Below, piece after piece: positions 56,354 to 62,116 of a stretch of 64,000 nucleotides of DNA. The notes beneath the pieces were generated by a model. That model made no database searches. It worked only from the letters and a program-made list of their open reading frames with translations, and was not told the origin of the DNA. Within the stretch, counting starts at the first letter, position 1. Each line of letters opens with the position of its first letter. Origin of the DNA: Flavobacterium sp. (lineage in GTDB: Bacteria; Bacteroidota; Bacteroidia; Flavobacteriales; Flavobacteriaceae); contig NZ_SEBR01000010.1 of assembly GCF_004295795.1 (NCBI RefSeq), positions 90,720-154,719 of the forward strand, given 5' to 3'. The translations under genes and the position numbers were made by a program.

Positions 56354-58507
56354 ATGAGGACTATTTACATTGCGTTATTTACGCTGTTTTCGTTCGTGGC
56401 TTCGGCTCAGGACAAAGAGGAAGTGCGGGAATTTTTTTGGGGAAAAGACGATCCGGCCAAGTCGGCCAAAGACGTTCCCGAAAAATGGAACAACGAATCG
56501 GCGGTCATTTTGTACAAATACCAGTTTTACGATTACCACAAATTCGGCAAACGCGTCAAATATGTGAGCGCGGCCAGAAAGCGAATCAAACTTCAGGATG
56601 CGGCGGCCGTGAAGGAATTTTCTGAATTTTCGTTCGAGGAAAGATTCGTAACCGACAAAGGTTTCAAGTACAAAAAAGGCACGAATACCGTCGGGATCAA
56701 AATCGTGAAACCCGATGGAAAAGAAGTGATCGTCGACGTGGAAAAAGAGTCCAAAAAAGTCGATAAGGAAAACAAGATCGCCATCGGAAACCTTGAAGTG
56801 GGCGACATCATCGACTTTTATTCGTACAGATTCGAGCCGTTCGAGTCGATGTATGCGTTTGGGTTCGATCCGGTGGAAACGACTTTGGGAGACGAATATC
56901 CGATAAAAGATTTCAAACTCGCCTTCAACACTGAAAACGACTTTTTCGTCAACTTCAACACGTTTAACGGAGCGCCCGAACTCAAGCAGATCGAAACCGG
57001 GAAAAGCAACGACAGACGCTACGAACTGGTCGCCTCCGAAATTCCCAAAAACGACTTTCCGCGCTGGTTTTATCCGCTAGTGGAATTGCCTTGCTACAAG
57101 TTCCAGGTGTATTTTGCGCGCTCGGGCAAGTTCGAGAAAATGGCGATGGCGTTCCTTCCGGAAAGCGAAAAAATCATCAAGAAAGACGTGACCAAGGAAG
57201 ACATCATGACTTTCTACAACAAGAAATATTATCCGTTCGGCGATTTGGGCCAGGTGGAAAAATTCCTCAAGGACAAAAAGTTCGAAAGCGACGAGGAAAA
57301 GTTGCGCGAGGTGTACTATTTCACGCGTCACATGTATTACACGCGCTATCTCGAGGCGATCGTGGCCGAACAGTCGAAGATTTTCCCGGCTTTCCAGCTT
57401 TACGGAATGGTGCCGCAATTTCTGGGCGACGAAGAAGCGTTCATCAAGTATTTCATGGCGTTCATGAAGGACAACAAGATCGATTACGACATCATTTTGT
57501 GCATGCCGAGATACGATGGCCCGATCTCGGGTTTGCTGATCGAGAAAGACATCAAGGTCATCATTCGCGCGAACACGGCAAAACCGATGTATCTGCAACA
57601 TTTTTCGGCGTTCACGAGTCCGGATCAGTTCGAGGAAAACCTCGAGAATACCGAGGCTTTCGTGTTGAATCTGGCAAGGCACAAAAAAGTTACCGATGTC
57701 ACGAAAGTCACGCTTCCGGGCACGACGAAAGAGGAAAACGCATCCATCGGAATACTGAAAGTCAAGACCGATGCAGATATGAAAGGACTTTCGATCGACA
57801 GAAAACTCAAGTTCCTAGGACATTTGAAGGAAGACGAGCAGGAAAGACGTTTGTATTTCTTCGATTATGTGGATGCGGACTACGAGAAATATCAGACGAA
57901 AAAGCTCGAAGATTTGATCCGTTCGGACAAAAAACAGGAAAAATTCCAAAAAGAATACGCGGCAATCGTAAACAAATCGCGCGACAACCAAAAAGAAGCG
58001 CTCGAAAAAATGGTCGAGGATGAATTCGACATCAAACCGACAGATTACAAATTTTCGGTACTGAACAGCGGCCGTTACGGAAAAGGTTCGGCCATGGAAG
58101 TCGAGGAAAAATTCGAACTCAAAGACGCGTTCATGAAGAAAGCGGGAGAGAATTACGTACTGGAAGTGGGTAAAATCATCGGCGGACAAGTGGCGCTTGA
58201 TGCCAAGGACAAGAAGCGTACGAACAACGTTTATATGTCGTTTCCTCGCAGTTTCGCCAATGAGATCGAGTTTGAGATTCCGTCAGGTTACACCGTTACC
58301 GGAATTGACAAACTCAACAAGAATGTCGTGAATTCTGCTGGTGGGTTTGTTAGTTCGGCTAAAATTGATGGTACTAAACTTGTCGTTAAGACCAATAAAT
58401 ACTATACGAATTATTACGAGCCTAATGCTAATTGGTCTAAGATGGTGGAGTTTTTGGAGGCGGCTTTTCAGTTTACGCAGGAGAAGGTTTTGTTGAAGAA
58501 GGCTTAG
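56354..58507 (+). CDS. DUF3857-like protein lacking an obvious transglutaminase triad
   Basis: Signal peptide; DUF3857-like N-half (GDIIDFYSYRFEP); no GDCK-type motif. Confidence 0.75.
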   Translation: MRTIYIALFTLFSFVASAQDKEEVREFFWGKDDPAKSAKDVPEKWNNESAVILYKYQFYDYHKFGKRVKYVSAARKRIKLQDAAAVKEFSEFSFEERFVTDKGFKYKKGTNTVGIKIVKPDGKEVIVDVEKESKKVDKENKIAIGNLEVGDIIDFYSYRFEPFESMYAFGFDPVETTLGDEYPIKDFKLAFNTENDFFVNFNTFNGAPELKQIETGKSNDRRYELVASEIPKNDFPRWFYPLVELPCYKFQVYFARSGKFEKMAMAFLPESEKIIKKDVTKEDIMTFYNKKYYPFGDLGQVEKFLKDKKFESDEEKLREVYYFTRHMYYTRYLEAIVAEQSKIFPAFQLYGMVPQFLGDEEAFIKYFMAFMKDNKIDYDIILCMPRYDGPISGLLIEKDIKVIIRANTAKPMYLQHFSAFTSPDQFEENLENTEAFVLNLARHKKVTDVTKVTLPGTTKEENASIGILKVKTDADMKGLSIDRKLKFLGHLKEDEQERRLYFFDYVDADYEKYQTKKLEDLIRSDKKQEKFQKEYAAIVNKSRDNQKEALEKMVEDEFDIKPTDYKFSVLNSGRYGKGSAMEVEEKFELKDAFMKKAGENYVLEVGKIIGGQVALDAKDKKRTNNVYMSFPRSFANEIEFEIPSGYTVTGIDKLNKNVVNSAGGFVSSAKIDGTKLVVKTNKYYTNYYEPNANWSKMVEFLEAAFQFTQEKVLLKKA

Positions 58508-58619
58508 GTTTTTAGAGGAATGAGTAGGAGGCAAGAGCTCGTTTTGTGTATGCGATTCGATCTTGTTTCTTGCTTTTTTTTATGTTGAACGGATTAGATT
58601 ATCTATTCCGGGTATTTCA

Positions 58620-59300
58620 CTACAACTTGTCAATCTGGCCGCAAATATGATTTATGTGATCTAAGCCATATAGTAATGCACCTTCGTCGATTCCCATCCA
58701 TTGAAATAATTGTTTTATGAGGCCATACTGTTGTCGAGCGTATGTAGAAGCTTTAATAGAGTTTCCTGCGCTAAAACAGATAGGTTCGTGATGCGCAATT
58801 CTGTTTCGCAGGTTATTGATCTGGATTAACTGATTGAATACAAATGTTTGATTGTATTGGACTGCGGCAGTACTGGTGGGTTTGCCCGGAAAGATTTTCA
58901 GCAAGTTTTTTCCAGCCGCAGAATATTGATTGGGAGCGAACATAAATCTCCAAAATCCAAATCCAAGTTCGGCTACAAGCTTGTCATGGGTGTAGCTATG
59001 CTTTAATTTTGCAACTCCATCGTTAATGTTTTGAGCAGTTAGTCTGCATTTGTTATTGTTGAAGATTCCACCTGGAACGGCAGCGTCGCGTAGCCAATGC
59101 GAGCCAAGATTGGCTGTGTAGTGTAAGTCAATCCTGTTTCTTAATGCAATTTCAAAACAACTGATAATTGTAAAAAGTTCCTGTGATAGGCGGAGATTTA
59201 GACGATATAACGTCATAGCCTTTCTGGTATTTCCACAGGCTGTGTAATATCGGGTCATTCTGGCTGCTGACATTATATTTTCGAAGTCTTGAAATCTCAT
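58620..59300 (-). CDS. Abi_2-family abortive infection-type protein (AbiD/AbiF-like) with HEPN-type motif
   Basis: YRLNLRLSQELFTIISCFEIALRNRIDLHY; VAELGFGFWRFMF; INNLRNRIAHHEPIC (RxxxxH). Confidence 0.83.
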   Translation of the reverse strand: MRFQDFENIMSAARMTRYYTACGNTRKAMTLYRLNLRLSQELFTIISCFEIALRNRIDLHYTANLGSHWLRDAAVPGGIFNNNKCRLTAQNINDGVAKLKHSYTHDKLVAELGFGFWRFMFAPNQYSAAGKNLLKIFPGKPTSTAAVQYNQTFVFNQLIQINNLRNRIAHHEPICFSAGNSIKASTYARQQYGLIKQLFQWMGIDEGALLYGLDHINHICGQIDKL

Positions 59301-59363
59301 GCTGTTAATTTGTTCTTTGACTGTAACTATTTACTTTTCGATTGCTTGTCACGTTTTTATTAC

Positions 59364-59451
59364 TTGTTTGTCACGTTGATAATGTATATCTTTGCCTAAT
59401 CTTATTCCCGTTAGTCCCTGGGCTCGTCCAAACTAACGGGTTTCGTTTTTT
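59364..59451 (+). ncRNA. Candidate short RNA: promoter plus intrinsic terminator, divergent to the Abi gene
   Basis: TTG(59364-59366)-N20-TATCTTTG(59387-59394), then CCCGTTAGT(59407)...ACTAACGGG(59440) + TTTCGTTTTTT. Confidence 0.5.
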
Positions 59452-59510
59452 ATAGGGTTTGCGACTTATCCCTCTTGTTGCGGTCTTTAATCAGTCGGTT
59501 TGCAAAGTGG

Positions 59511-59713
59511 TATCTTTGGACGTAGTCGACCCTTTGCGGAATAGCCTTTTTTCGCGTTAGGTTACATTTGCGGTTTAAGCGATTAGTCTATATTCGGGCT
59601 AACAATAATACTGAAAAGGTTAAGAGATCAATGATTGTGATTCTTATAAGAATCAACATCGTTAAAATTTCTCCCCGATATAGGTTGAGAGCTTACGCTC
59701 TCATCTTTTTTTT
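59511..59713 (+). ncRNA. Candidate ~190-nt non-coding transcript ending in a strong terminator
   Basis: TATCTTTG at 59511-59518; TGATTCTTATAAGAATCA hairpin; TGAGAGC-ttac-GCTCTCA + TCTTTTTTTT at 59686-59713; no convincing ORF. Confidence 0.4.
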
Positions 59714-59714
59714 A

Positions 59715-60390
59715 AGCCAACTTCGCTTATGTTGGTTATTTTGCAGCGGCTGCGCCGCCGTTGGCTTTTAGTTTCTTTCGTCGCCTGTCCGGCGGGGACT
59801 TCTTTTACTTCATTGATTTTTATTGTTTTTTAAAGGATTCAGTGAACCTCGTTCCTCGGTTTGTCTGGTAACAAAAGAAGCAAAAATGCCTTGCGACACA
59901 CCGTTTTGGCGACCTGACAGCCTTGCAAATTCGGAAATTAAAGGAACTCGCGGGAACCTTCTTTCGAAATGACTTTCTCTTTAGGCCGCTCAAACAGCCT
60001 TTAATTTCGCGAATTTGCAAGGCGTCAGGTGCCCGCCAAAACGATGATGCCGCGGACTAATTGGAACTTTTTTTACTGATTTTTGGCTTGCGCGCTGTGC
60101 CAAAAATGGGCTCGCCTGGGGAGTTTTGGTTTTTACAGGGAGATTTTTTTTCACGAAGTGCTGCACGCGCCGGAAACTTTCGTCGAAACTGTTGTGTTTC
60201 GGTTCTCTCAAATAGCCTTTATTTTACTATGCAAGTTCCGTCCGTTCGCGTTTGTCGGGTCGCAGATTGCCAAGGCGTTAGGTATCAGCCAAAACGTTGA
60301 TGCCGAGGACTAATTGGATATTTTTATTGATCTTTGGCTTGCGCGCTGCGACAAAAATGGGCTCGCTCGGGGAGTCTTGGTTCTTATGGA
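59715..60390 (+). repeat. Dispersed hairpin repeat, copy 3 plus a partial tandem copy
   Basis: GCAGCGGCTGCGCCGCC, TCGTCGCCTGTCCGGCGGGG, arms ACCTGACAGCCTTGCAAATTCGGAAAT (59912-59938) / ATTTCGCGAATTTGCAAGGCGTCAGGT (60004-60030); right half repeats from about 60240. Confidence 0.85.
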
Positions 60391-60474
60391 AAGGTTTTTC
60401 GCGAATGGAATTCCAGTGTGAAAAGTTCGAAAATTACTAGAGCAAGATTTCGACGACGTGAAGGTTGGTAACGG

Positions 60475-61026
60475 TTACCTTATCTGTTTAAGTATGGTTA
60501 ACAAATCTGGAATCTTATTATTTTGGCTCTCAGTCCAAAAGTAATGGGAATTATCGATGCTTCCGTTATCCTTCAAAAATATAGATATGCGTTTAGAGTT
60601 TTGCCCGATATGAAAACTAAACCGAATTTCTTTCGTATTGAAAATATACGTAGTTGACTGTTTCTTTTCTGTTTTGTCGTTAAGGTTAGGGACAACGTAG
60701 GAGTCTAAGAAAGTTATGAATTCATCGATCTCGTTTAGGTCAATCCAAGACGATTTAAAATATGGTTTATTTCCTTCGTTGACTGTCATATCCATTTGCA
60801 AAGCCTTGATTTTTAAGTTAGACTTCAGATTAGTTGCCTCGATAGGGAAAAATGAGACAACTTCTCCAATTCCAGAAGTAAGTTGGGCCTTTACACTCCA
60901 GTCTCTATTGACTTGGATAAACTCTGCATTGTCAATAAATTTTCGGGTGTTCGAGTTGGAGTTTGTTTCCTGAGCATAGTTGGCCAAGGAAAACATAATC
61001 AGAAATATTTGAATTAGTGATTTCAT
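60475..61026 (-). CDS. Hypothetical secreted protein
   Basis: Signal peptide MKSLIQIFLIMFSLANYAQ. Confidence 0.6.
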   Translation of the reverse strand: MKSLIQIFLIMFSLANYAQETNSNSNTRKFIDNAEFIQVNRDWSVKAQLTSGIGEVVSFFPIEATNLKSNLKIKALQMDMTVNEGNKPYFKSSWIDLNEIDEFITFLDSYVVPNLNDKTEKKQSTTYIFNTKEIRFSFHIGQNSKRISIFLKDNGSIDNSHYFWTESQNNKIPDLLTILKQIR

Positions 61027-61218
61027 AATGAGTTTGACTGAATTTGTAATCGAAAATAAAATAAGTTGGAAAATAAAAATGACCACACTTATCTCGCAAA
61101 AATAAAAGTCTTTCCATTAGAAATTTAAGGCTTTCCGTTGGCGACGTTTTAGCTACCTCCATAAGTATCAATAGCACAAGAGCCAAATACCTATGTTTTT
61201 ACTGAGTGAGGCACTTAA

Positions 61219-62116
61219 CTATTTCTGAAGATACTCTTCCAAATCCAAAATCAATTTATTCTTCTGAACGTGGAATAATGAGACTTTTTTCGACCAAAAG
61301 CCTTCATAAGCAATTATGTCTTGACCAAGCATTTTTACACTATAAAGCTCAGAAGATGGCCAAGTTGACTCCAATTTAAATTTTGAAAAGTTGCACTTCG
61401 GATAATATTCAAAATTGGATGTCTGTTGTGTTTCTATGACTTGAATAGAATCTCTAGATGTTATTACTGAGAGTAGATCATGCTTCATAACATTGAATTG
61501 CACAATTCTTTTTAGCGTTATGATTTCGATAGGCTTTCGGTTTTCCCACTTGTAGATATGATAAACACTATCTTGAAAAAAGTAGCCAAACATCCTGGAT
61601 CCTTTCAATTCTTGAACTTCATCTGGTCGCTCAATTTTACGATTCAAAAGAAGTCTAACTAATTTGGATGGTTTGGACGTGTACCACTTTTCGAAATCAT
61701 CTTTCTTTGTTTTTAAGTACTTAAAATTTTTTACTGAAATTTCAATTAAACTCAATGTTTTGGCAATGTCATGGTGTTCTATATCGATGATAAAGGTCAA
61801 GCCTTTGCGCTCTGTTTGGGTCTGTTGGTTAAATACTCTTATTTCGCTAGAATGCCTATTTCTAAGCCAAATATATATTGGCTCGTTGTACTTCAATTCT
61901 TTTAATAATGACTCTGCATATTTGGCAATAATTAGGTTTGTGTTAATCTTCTGTGTAATATGGAGTGAACGATAAAAGATTGACGTTGCCATATGTCTTT
62001 TCGATTAGAACATCTTTATGCGCAAATGAATGCACACACAGAGAACTTAATAATGATAGAAAGATTATTAATCGATTTATTATTCTAGAGGATGTGGGAG
62101 CTATGGTGTTGTACAT
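61219..62116 (-). pseudogene. Secreted protein gene split by a probable frameshift
   Basis: 61943..62155 frame (signal peptide ... TYGNVNLLSFTPYYTED*) and 61219..61992 frame (...INTNLIIAKYAESLLKELKYNEPIY...) join near 61948 by a one-base shift. Confidence 0.6.

Follow-up and report, generated by a model that had tools for sequence, protein, structure and literature searches.

The window analysed here is a stretch of 64,000 nt from Flavobacterium sp. (GCF_004295795.1, contig NZ_SEBR01000010.1, forward-strand positions 90,720 to 154,719). Its minus strand carries, at 58620-59300, a gene for a short Abi_2-family HEPN protein of 226 aa, a putative RNase toxin. Pfam Abi_2 (PF07751) matches this protein with E=5.6e-8 and 33.7 bits, against a curated cut-off of 25.6, and PADLOC profiles match it as PD-T4-5 (6e-13, the best) and AbiD (9e-8); there is no NCBIfam family match. 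A first-pass annotation of the window had pointed to LRNRIAHHEPI as an HEPN RxxxxH motif in this ORF, and the motif is indeed there. It is the only HEPN motif of the protein: RNRIAH (R-polar-xxx-H) occupies codons 165-170 (58791-58808, minus strand), and R165, N166 and H170 are invariant in alignments of 11 and of 33 homologous sequences. A search of the PDB by sequence found no match to the protein, whereas a search by fold did. Foldseek paired the AlphaFold model (pLDDT 93.8) with 8vz6, the PbAbiF dimer with its ncRNA (probability 1.00, TM 0.66 by query length, E 2.4e-3), and this was the sole credible fold match, the runner-up having E 1.3. By prediction, the 226-aa protein has the AbiF fold.

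Upstream of the gene and on the opposite strand there is a promoter of flavobacterial type followed by a hairpin, much as the first-pass annotation had read the letters. The promoter, which it gave as TTG-N20-TATCTTTG, consists of a -33 box TTG (59364-59366, plus strand) and a -7 box TATCTTTG (59387-59394). Twelve bp past it lies the proposed terminator hairpin with a 9-bp stem, CCCGTTAGT / ACTAACGGG followed by a T-run. We call the corresponding predicted transcript the class I RNA. It would span about 50-55 nt, approximately 59399-59453 on the plus strand, and R1, our covariance model of this RNA, matches 59400-59455 with 69.7 bits. The outer stem is formed by CCCGTTAGT (59407-59415) and ACTAACGGG (59432-59440). 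It encloses a conserved 3-nt internal loop, CCC (59416-59418), and an inner stem-loop, UGGG-CUCG-UCCA (59419-59430), whose first two pairs, U-A and G-C, are invariant. A U-rich tail, TTTCGTTTTTT (59441-59451), follows the outer stem directly, so that the RNA's own hairpin is its intrinsic terminator. Compared with shuffled sequences, the hairpin of the window folds with z = -4.1. There is one real copy in the genome of the window, the next best R1 score being 21.9 bits.

Two other repeats lie nearby. A direct repeat, TTGTCACG, at 59346-59353 and 59368-59375 (spaced 22 bp), overlaps the sRNA promoter in its -33 region; it was not seen in homologues and is possibly an operator, possibly chance. 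Farther into the intergenic region, past the sRNA, a long imperfect inverted repeat occupies 59918-60025; the MIR1428 label that it attracts is a weak model match and reflects merely the palindrome. On the strand of the abi gene itself, no clear promoter was recognised by eye.

Two separate searches for homologues were made, one with the protein and one with the non-coding DNA as query. The first non-coding search, of 59370-59730, gave the hairpin as its only clear match, in a genome of the same genus, directly upstream of an Abi_2 gene with 55% identity. Relatives of the protein were then drawn from 400 same-genus genomes, from plasmids and from 85,462 species genomes (the best 80 of 384 relatives being kept). 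Those from the plasmid search belong to Chryseobacterium (67% identity), Hymenobacter (63%), Riemerella (45%), Phocaeicola (35%) and a Neisseria record (42%). Abi_2 relatives were not found in viral contigs, and phage records gave weak Zymomonas matches only. In all 14 close homologues inspected first, the element is on the other strand than the gene, with 30-100 bp between it and the start codon, and class I RNA accompanies the close homologues from the genus itself, those carried on plasmids and the Neisseria relative. Among the best 80 of the 384 relatives, which are the best-scoring ones and many of them close kin of one another, R1 finds the RNA in 78 of the 78 loci with enough flank; in the other two (L085 and L120) the sequence begins at the gene. 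The 78 loci come from Bacteroidota and from MAGs labelled Acidobacteria. In every one of them the RNA is on the strand opposite the gene, and in 76 it occupies the short stretch upstream of and divergent to the gene, its distance from the start codon being 36-152 bp in the 72 loci measured. The two displaced copies lie about 1.1 kb upstream (L094) and just downstream (L122).

The promoter is conserved together with the hairpin, and at essentially every homologue the upstream region retains both. In 55 loci with distinct class I sequences, TAnnTTTG is found within 50 nt before the stem in 47, against 4.2 expected, and exactly 20 nt before it in 38; a TTG box is enriched about 23 nt farther upstream, at -43 to -41 from the stem. 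The consensus of the RNA is UCUUAUUCCCGGUAGYCCCUGAAGnAAUUCAARCUAUCGGGUUUCGUUUUUUAU, and its architecture comprises a 9-bp outer stem, a 3-nt internal loop, an inner stem, a loop of 2-6 nt, one 3' bulge nucleotide and a U-rich tail. The first and third C of the internal loop are invariant in 55/55 sequences, the middle position being C, U, G or A. The divergence of the RNA is correlated with that of the protein (Mantel r 0.33, p 0.0002).

The structure covaries far beyond shuffled controls. Across the 55 sequences, 96.6% of cells are paired (85.6 in shuffles), 77 cells carry changes in both partners (shuffles: 21.1 +/- 5.6) and the covariation score is 0.355 (0.135 in shuffles), none of 500 shuffles being as high in either of the last two measures. 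Relatedness of the sequences can inflate such a shuffle control; the count of changes on both sides is less affected, and so is a slide control, in which the score collapses when partners are slid by 1, to at most 0.087. Changes on both sides occur in 5 of the 9 outer pairs; in the inner stem, 2 of the 4 pairs covary and the other 2 never vary.

Since the folding of single strands cannot by itself tell the two strands apart, the strand was decided by non-canonical pairs. An A-C cell on one strand is a G-U cell on the opposite one. On the divergent strand we count 42 G-U cells and 1 A-C cell, and the class I RNA is therefore read divergently from the gene; an RNA on the gene strand, that is, a hairpin in the 5' UTR of abi, is ruled out by the same counts.

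The first-pass annotation had proposed an ncRNA of about 50 nt and/or one of about 190 nt. The short RNA is the conserved, covarying one just described. Two of the findings that the annotation had named as fatal to its reading, a lack of covariation and homologues devoid of a conserved upstream region, were looked for, and the data show the opposite of both. The long one fares differently: its promoter and terminator do exist in the letters of the window (a second TATCTTTG at 59511, a terminator at 59686-59712), and 59511-59712 (plus strand) folds better than shuffles, with z -3.2, but nothing like them is kept elsewhere. Homologues and 180 genus genomes hold no conserved counterpart, only short scattered fragments.

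How does this RNA relate to the abiF motif of Rfam (RF03085), to which the locus had initially been linked? The link does not hold. RF03085 has no match at E<=1 in 57000-62000 of the window and none at E<=10 at the class I RNAs of 15 genomes or records, and the abiF label is therefore rejected for class I RNA. The two systems are nevertheless alike in that both join a small hairpin RNA to a neighbouring gene for a Pfam Abi_2 HEPN protein with an RN..xH motif, and the predicted fold of the window protein matches that of PbAbiF with its ncRNA (8VZ6). They differ in several respects. The window protein has 226 aa, against about 266-343 aa in the AbiF examples examined. The canonical RNA lies just upstream of its abiF gene on the same strand, and RNA and gene are co-directional in 4/4 Bacteroidota loci that have an RF03085 motif and a nearby, longer AbiF gene (L040, L041, L175 and, with a weak match, L039), whereas the window RNA is divergent and ends directly in its own terminator. 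By eye, a common core can be discerned: a 2-bp helix (G-Y/R-C or G-C), then a C-Y-C bulge, an inner stem whose first pair is U-A, and a single bulged nucleotide on the 3' side (GC-CUC-U..A-N-GC). When R1 was run against six RF03085 motifs, four (L039, L042, L043 and L175) came among the top 8 hits in 18 kb, at E 0.2-0.8 (R1 and R2 E-values are rough), partly via the U-run. As this recovery is at noise level, common descent of the class I and canonical abiF RNAs is no more than plausible.

At the loci of more distantly related Abi_2 proteins from this genus (25-34% identity), class I RNA is missing and another divergent RNA is present, class II (AAGCCUCUU), with the consensus RACUUGGUnAAGCCUCUU...GAAAYGUAAUCAAGU. 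It has the same C-U-C bulge and is followed by a separate terminator. In 14 sequences (L003, L004, L005, L017-L021, L023, L024, L031 and L162-L164), 99.5% of cells are paired and 24 are changed on both sides, against 7.3 in shuffles (0/500 as high). R2, the covariance model of class II, has matches in 11/200 genus genomes, 8 of them beside a distant Abi_2 gene and on the opposite strand. RF03085 has no match at the class II loci, and matches there to BTnc231 and other Rfam models are weak, generic and far below cut-off. R2 in its turn finds neither class I nor canonical RNAs, so that common descent of the RNA classes is something we infer from the core recognised by eye.

A possible third type of divergent hairpin, CCUCUCCC or a close variant, is seen upstream of the Abi_2 start in L022, L166, L172, L177 and L180, in Bacteroidota and Proteobacteria; Pseudomonas and Aeromonas are among the bacteria whose Abi_2 genes have such a hairpin next to them. 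Some loci combine elements. Class I hairpins occur as tandem pairs in L059 (3801-3952), L079 (61-172) and L086 (3843-3954), for comparison with which we may cite RCd22 of C. difficile, which carries two abiF motifs. At L010 (1149-1208, minus strand) a class I pair adjoins a class II RNA, and on contig C63 of genome G390 (L009 and L039) some 3 kb separate a class I pair from an AbiF of canonical type, itself accompanied by a weak match to RF03085.

What might the pair be doing? We put at roughly three in four the probability that it is a two-part RNA-antitoxin/HEPN-toxin module and a candidate defence system. The first-pass annotation had suggested such a module; the ~50-nt covarying RNA on the opposite strand and the AbiF-like predicted fold support the suggestion in part, and the Rfam abiF motif and the ~190-nt RNA drop out of it. 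There are precedents. In C. difficile, RCd22 RNA binds AbiF directly and so neutralises it (PMC12373285), and the RNase of the PbAbiF system is inhibited by bulge nucleotides of its RNA (PMC12737573). The transfer of this mechanism has to remain analogical because the canonical AbiF RNAs are co-directional and are matched by a different model. If it is correct, the strong divergent promoter would yield a hairpin RNA of about 50 nt, terminated on its own stem. This RNA, present in excess, would bind the dimer of the Abi_2 HEPN protein, at perhaps 1:1 per monomer as for PbAbiF, and its bulged core would block the RNRxAH active site. A phage that halts host transcription or degrades RNA would free the protein, which would be the more stable partner, and the freed protein would cut RNA and arrest the cell (abortive infection). 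In AbiF and type III systems, toxin and RNA stand under one promoter, with the ratio set by a terminator; here, unlike in those systems, the ratio would be set by two separate divergent promoters.

An asymmetry between the partners is what an antitoxin would give. Each intact toxin with flanking sequence has its RNA among the best 80 of the 384 relatives, where the toxin ORF is intact in 79/80 kept loci (the list was selected for full-length matches). The RNA, on the other hand, persists beside broken toxins, one without its C-terminal part (L002) and others disrupted (L012, L029 and L016). An unselected survey of 297 phylum genomes gave 11 strong R1 hits, of which 3 lie beside intact toxins, 3 beside broken ones (L124, L129, L144) and 5 without a toxin within 1.5 kb; in L126 the toxin was lost and the RNA kept. 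This fits, and does not prove, loss of the toxin leaving a harmless antitoxin behind. Because such orphans exist (5 of the 11 strong hits), the RNA may also serve some other purpose, or be retained as a terminator. Orphan RNAs of class I or class II with no Abi_2 gene nearby are L126, L127, L128, L131, L132 and L189-L191; two of them, L128 and L131, occupy the same site, immediately behind ilvB and adjoining a nucleotidyltransferase/HEPN-like gene pair.

Orphans at such terminator-like sites after ilvB, and the position of the hairpin between divergent genes with a terminator at its end, could suggest a local role only: transcription interference, an insulator or terminator, or a DNA or RNA operator for autoregulation of abi, with no antitoxin acting in trans. 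We consider this improbable. A dedicated promoter stands at fixed spacing, with the predicted transcription start just before the hairpin, and the RNA is present even where it is displaced, about 1.1 kb upstream of the gene (L094) or just downstream of it (L122). A plain terminator, moreover, needs no invariant internal loop, UG/CA inner pairs or inner-stem covariation, and R1 gives ordinary terminators no more than 36 bits, whereas nearly all class I RNAs reach 45-83; covariation and the conserved promoter together disfavour it. Less probable again is an RNA that activates or aims the HEPN RNase as an obligate cofactor or guide, in the manner of Cas13, rather than inhibiting it. The tight one-to-one association of RNA and protein and the kinship of the family to Cas13 ancestry (PMC12373285, PMC12737573) would suit that role, but the whole RNA is a conserved hairpin with no spacer or variable guide segment, its sole hypervariable part is a loop of 2-6 nt, and the characterised AbiF RNAs are antitoxins (PMC12373285). 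Orphan copies might also recall a mobile palindromic (REP-like) repeat near these genes by chance, a notion with hardly any credit left, as the single real copy in the genome of the window (next best 21.9 bits) rules it out, position and strand are fixed relative to the gene and the promoter is conserved alongside.

An RNase toxin held by a small RNA, as we infer for the window pair, also recalls the type III toxin-antitoxin systems (ToxIN, CptIN, TenpIN). In classical type III systems the RNA is co-transcribed upstream of the toxin, in repeats. The window toxin, however, has the HEPN fold and not the ToxN fold, its RNA is on the opposite strand under a separate divergent promoter, and nearly all loci have no tandem repeat array, the RNA being single except for the pairs of L059 and L079/L086. 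Cas13 (type VI CRISPR) is likewise an HEPN RNase, for which the AbiF lineage is the proposed source, but it has two HEPN motifs and a CRISPR array, against one motif and no guide segment here, and the 450 bp upstream of the homologues showed no repeat array. PD-T4-5, the best PADLOC match of the window protein (E=6e-13), is a distant, plasmid-borne AbiF/D relative that gives abortive defence in E. coli (PMC9519451); it was reported as a single gene.

Since the same hairpin, whose structure bears strong signs of selection, accompanies nearly every relative of the protein, the Abi_2 protein and its divergent RNA would seem to be a hitherto undescribed branch of the AbiF-type systems of toxin and RNA antitoxin, which are related to the origin of Cas13. 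To our knowledge, only the co-directional RF03085 motif has been catalogued so far, and our search of the open-access PMC literature turned up no description of a divergent Abi_2 RNA. We lean, by a small margin of belief, towards the broader view that divergent structured RNA partners are the rule for the short Abi_2/AbiD HEPN family, with two covarying classes at the least and in all likelihood a third (CCUCUCCC), all from one bulged-hairpin core shared with abiF RNA; the Rfam abiF motif would then greatly understate how widely RNA-antitoxin HEPN toxins occur and how much they vary. With its minimal, self-terminating divergent RNA of about 50 nt, a large Abi_2 subfamily would represent such a pair in the simplest form known, and it would supply candidate RNA partners for genes annotated merely as "Abi family protein". 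AbiF with its RNA antitoxin is held to be the ancestor of Cas13, and the RNA classes may offer a natural series for tracing the transition from antitoxin RNA to guide.
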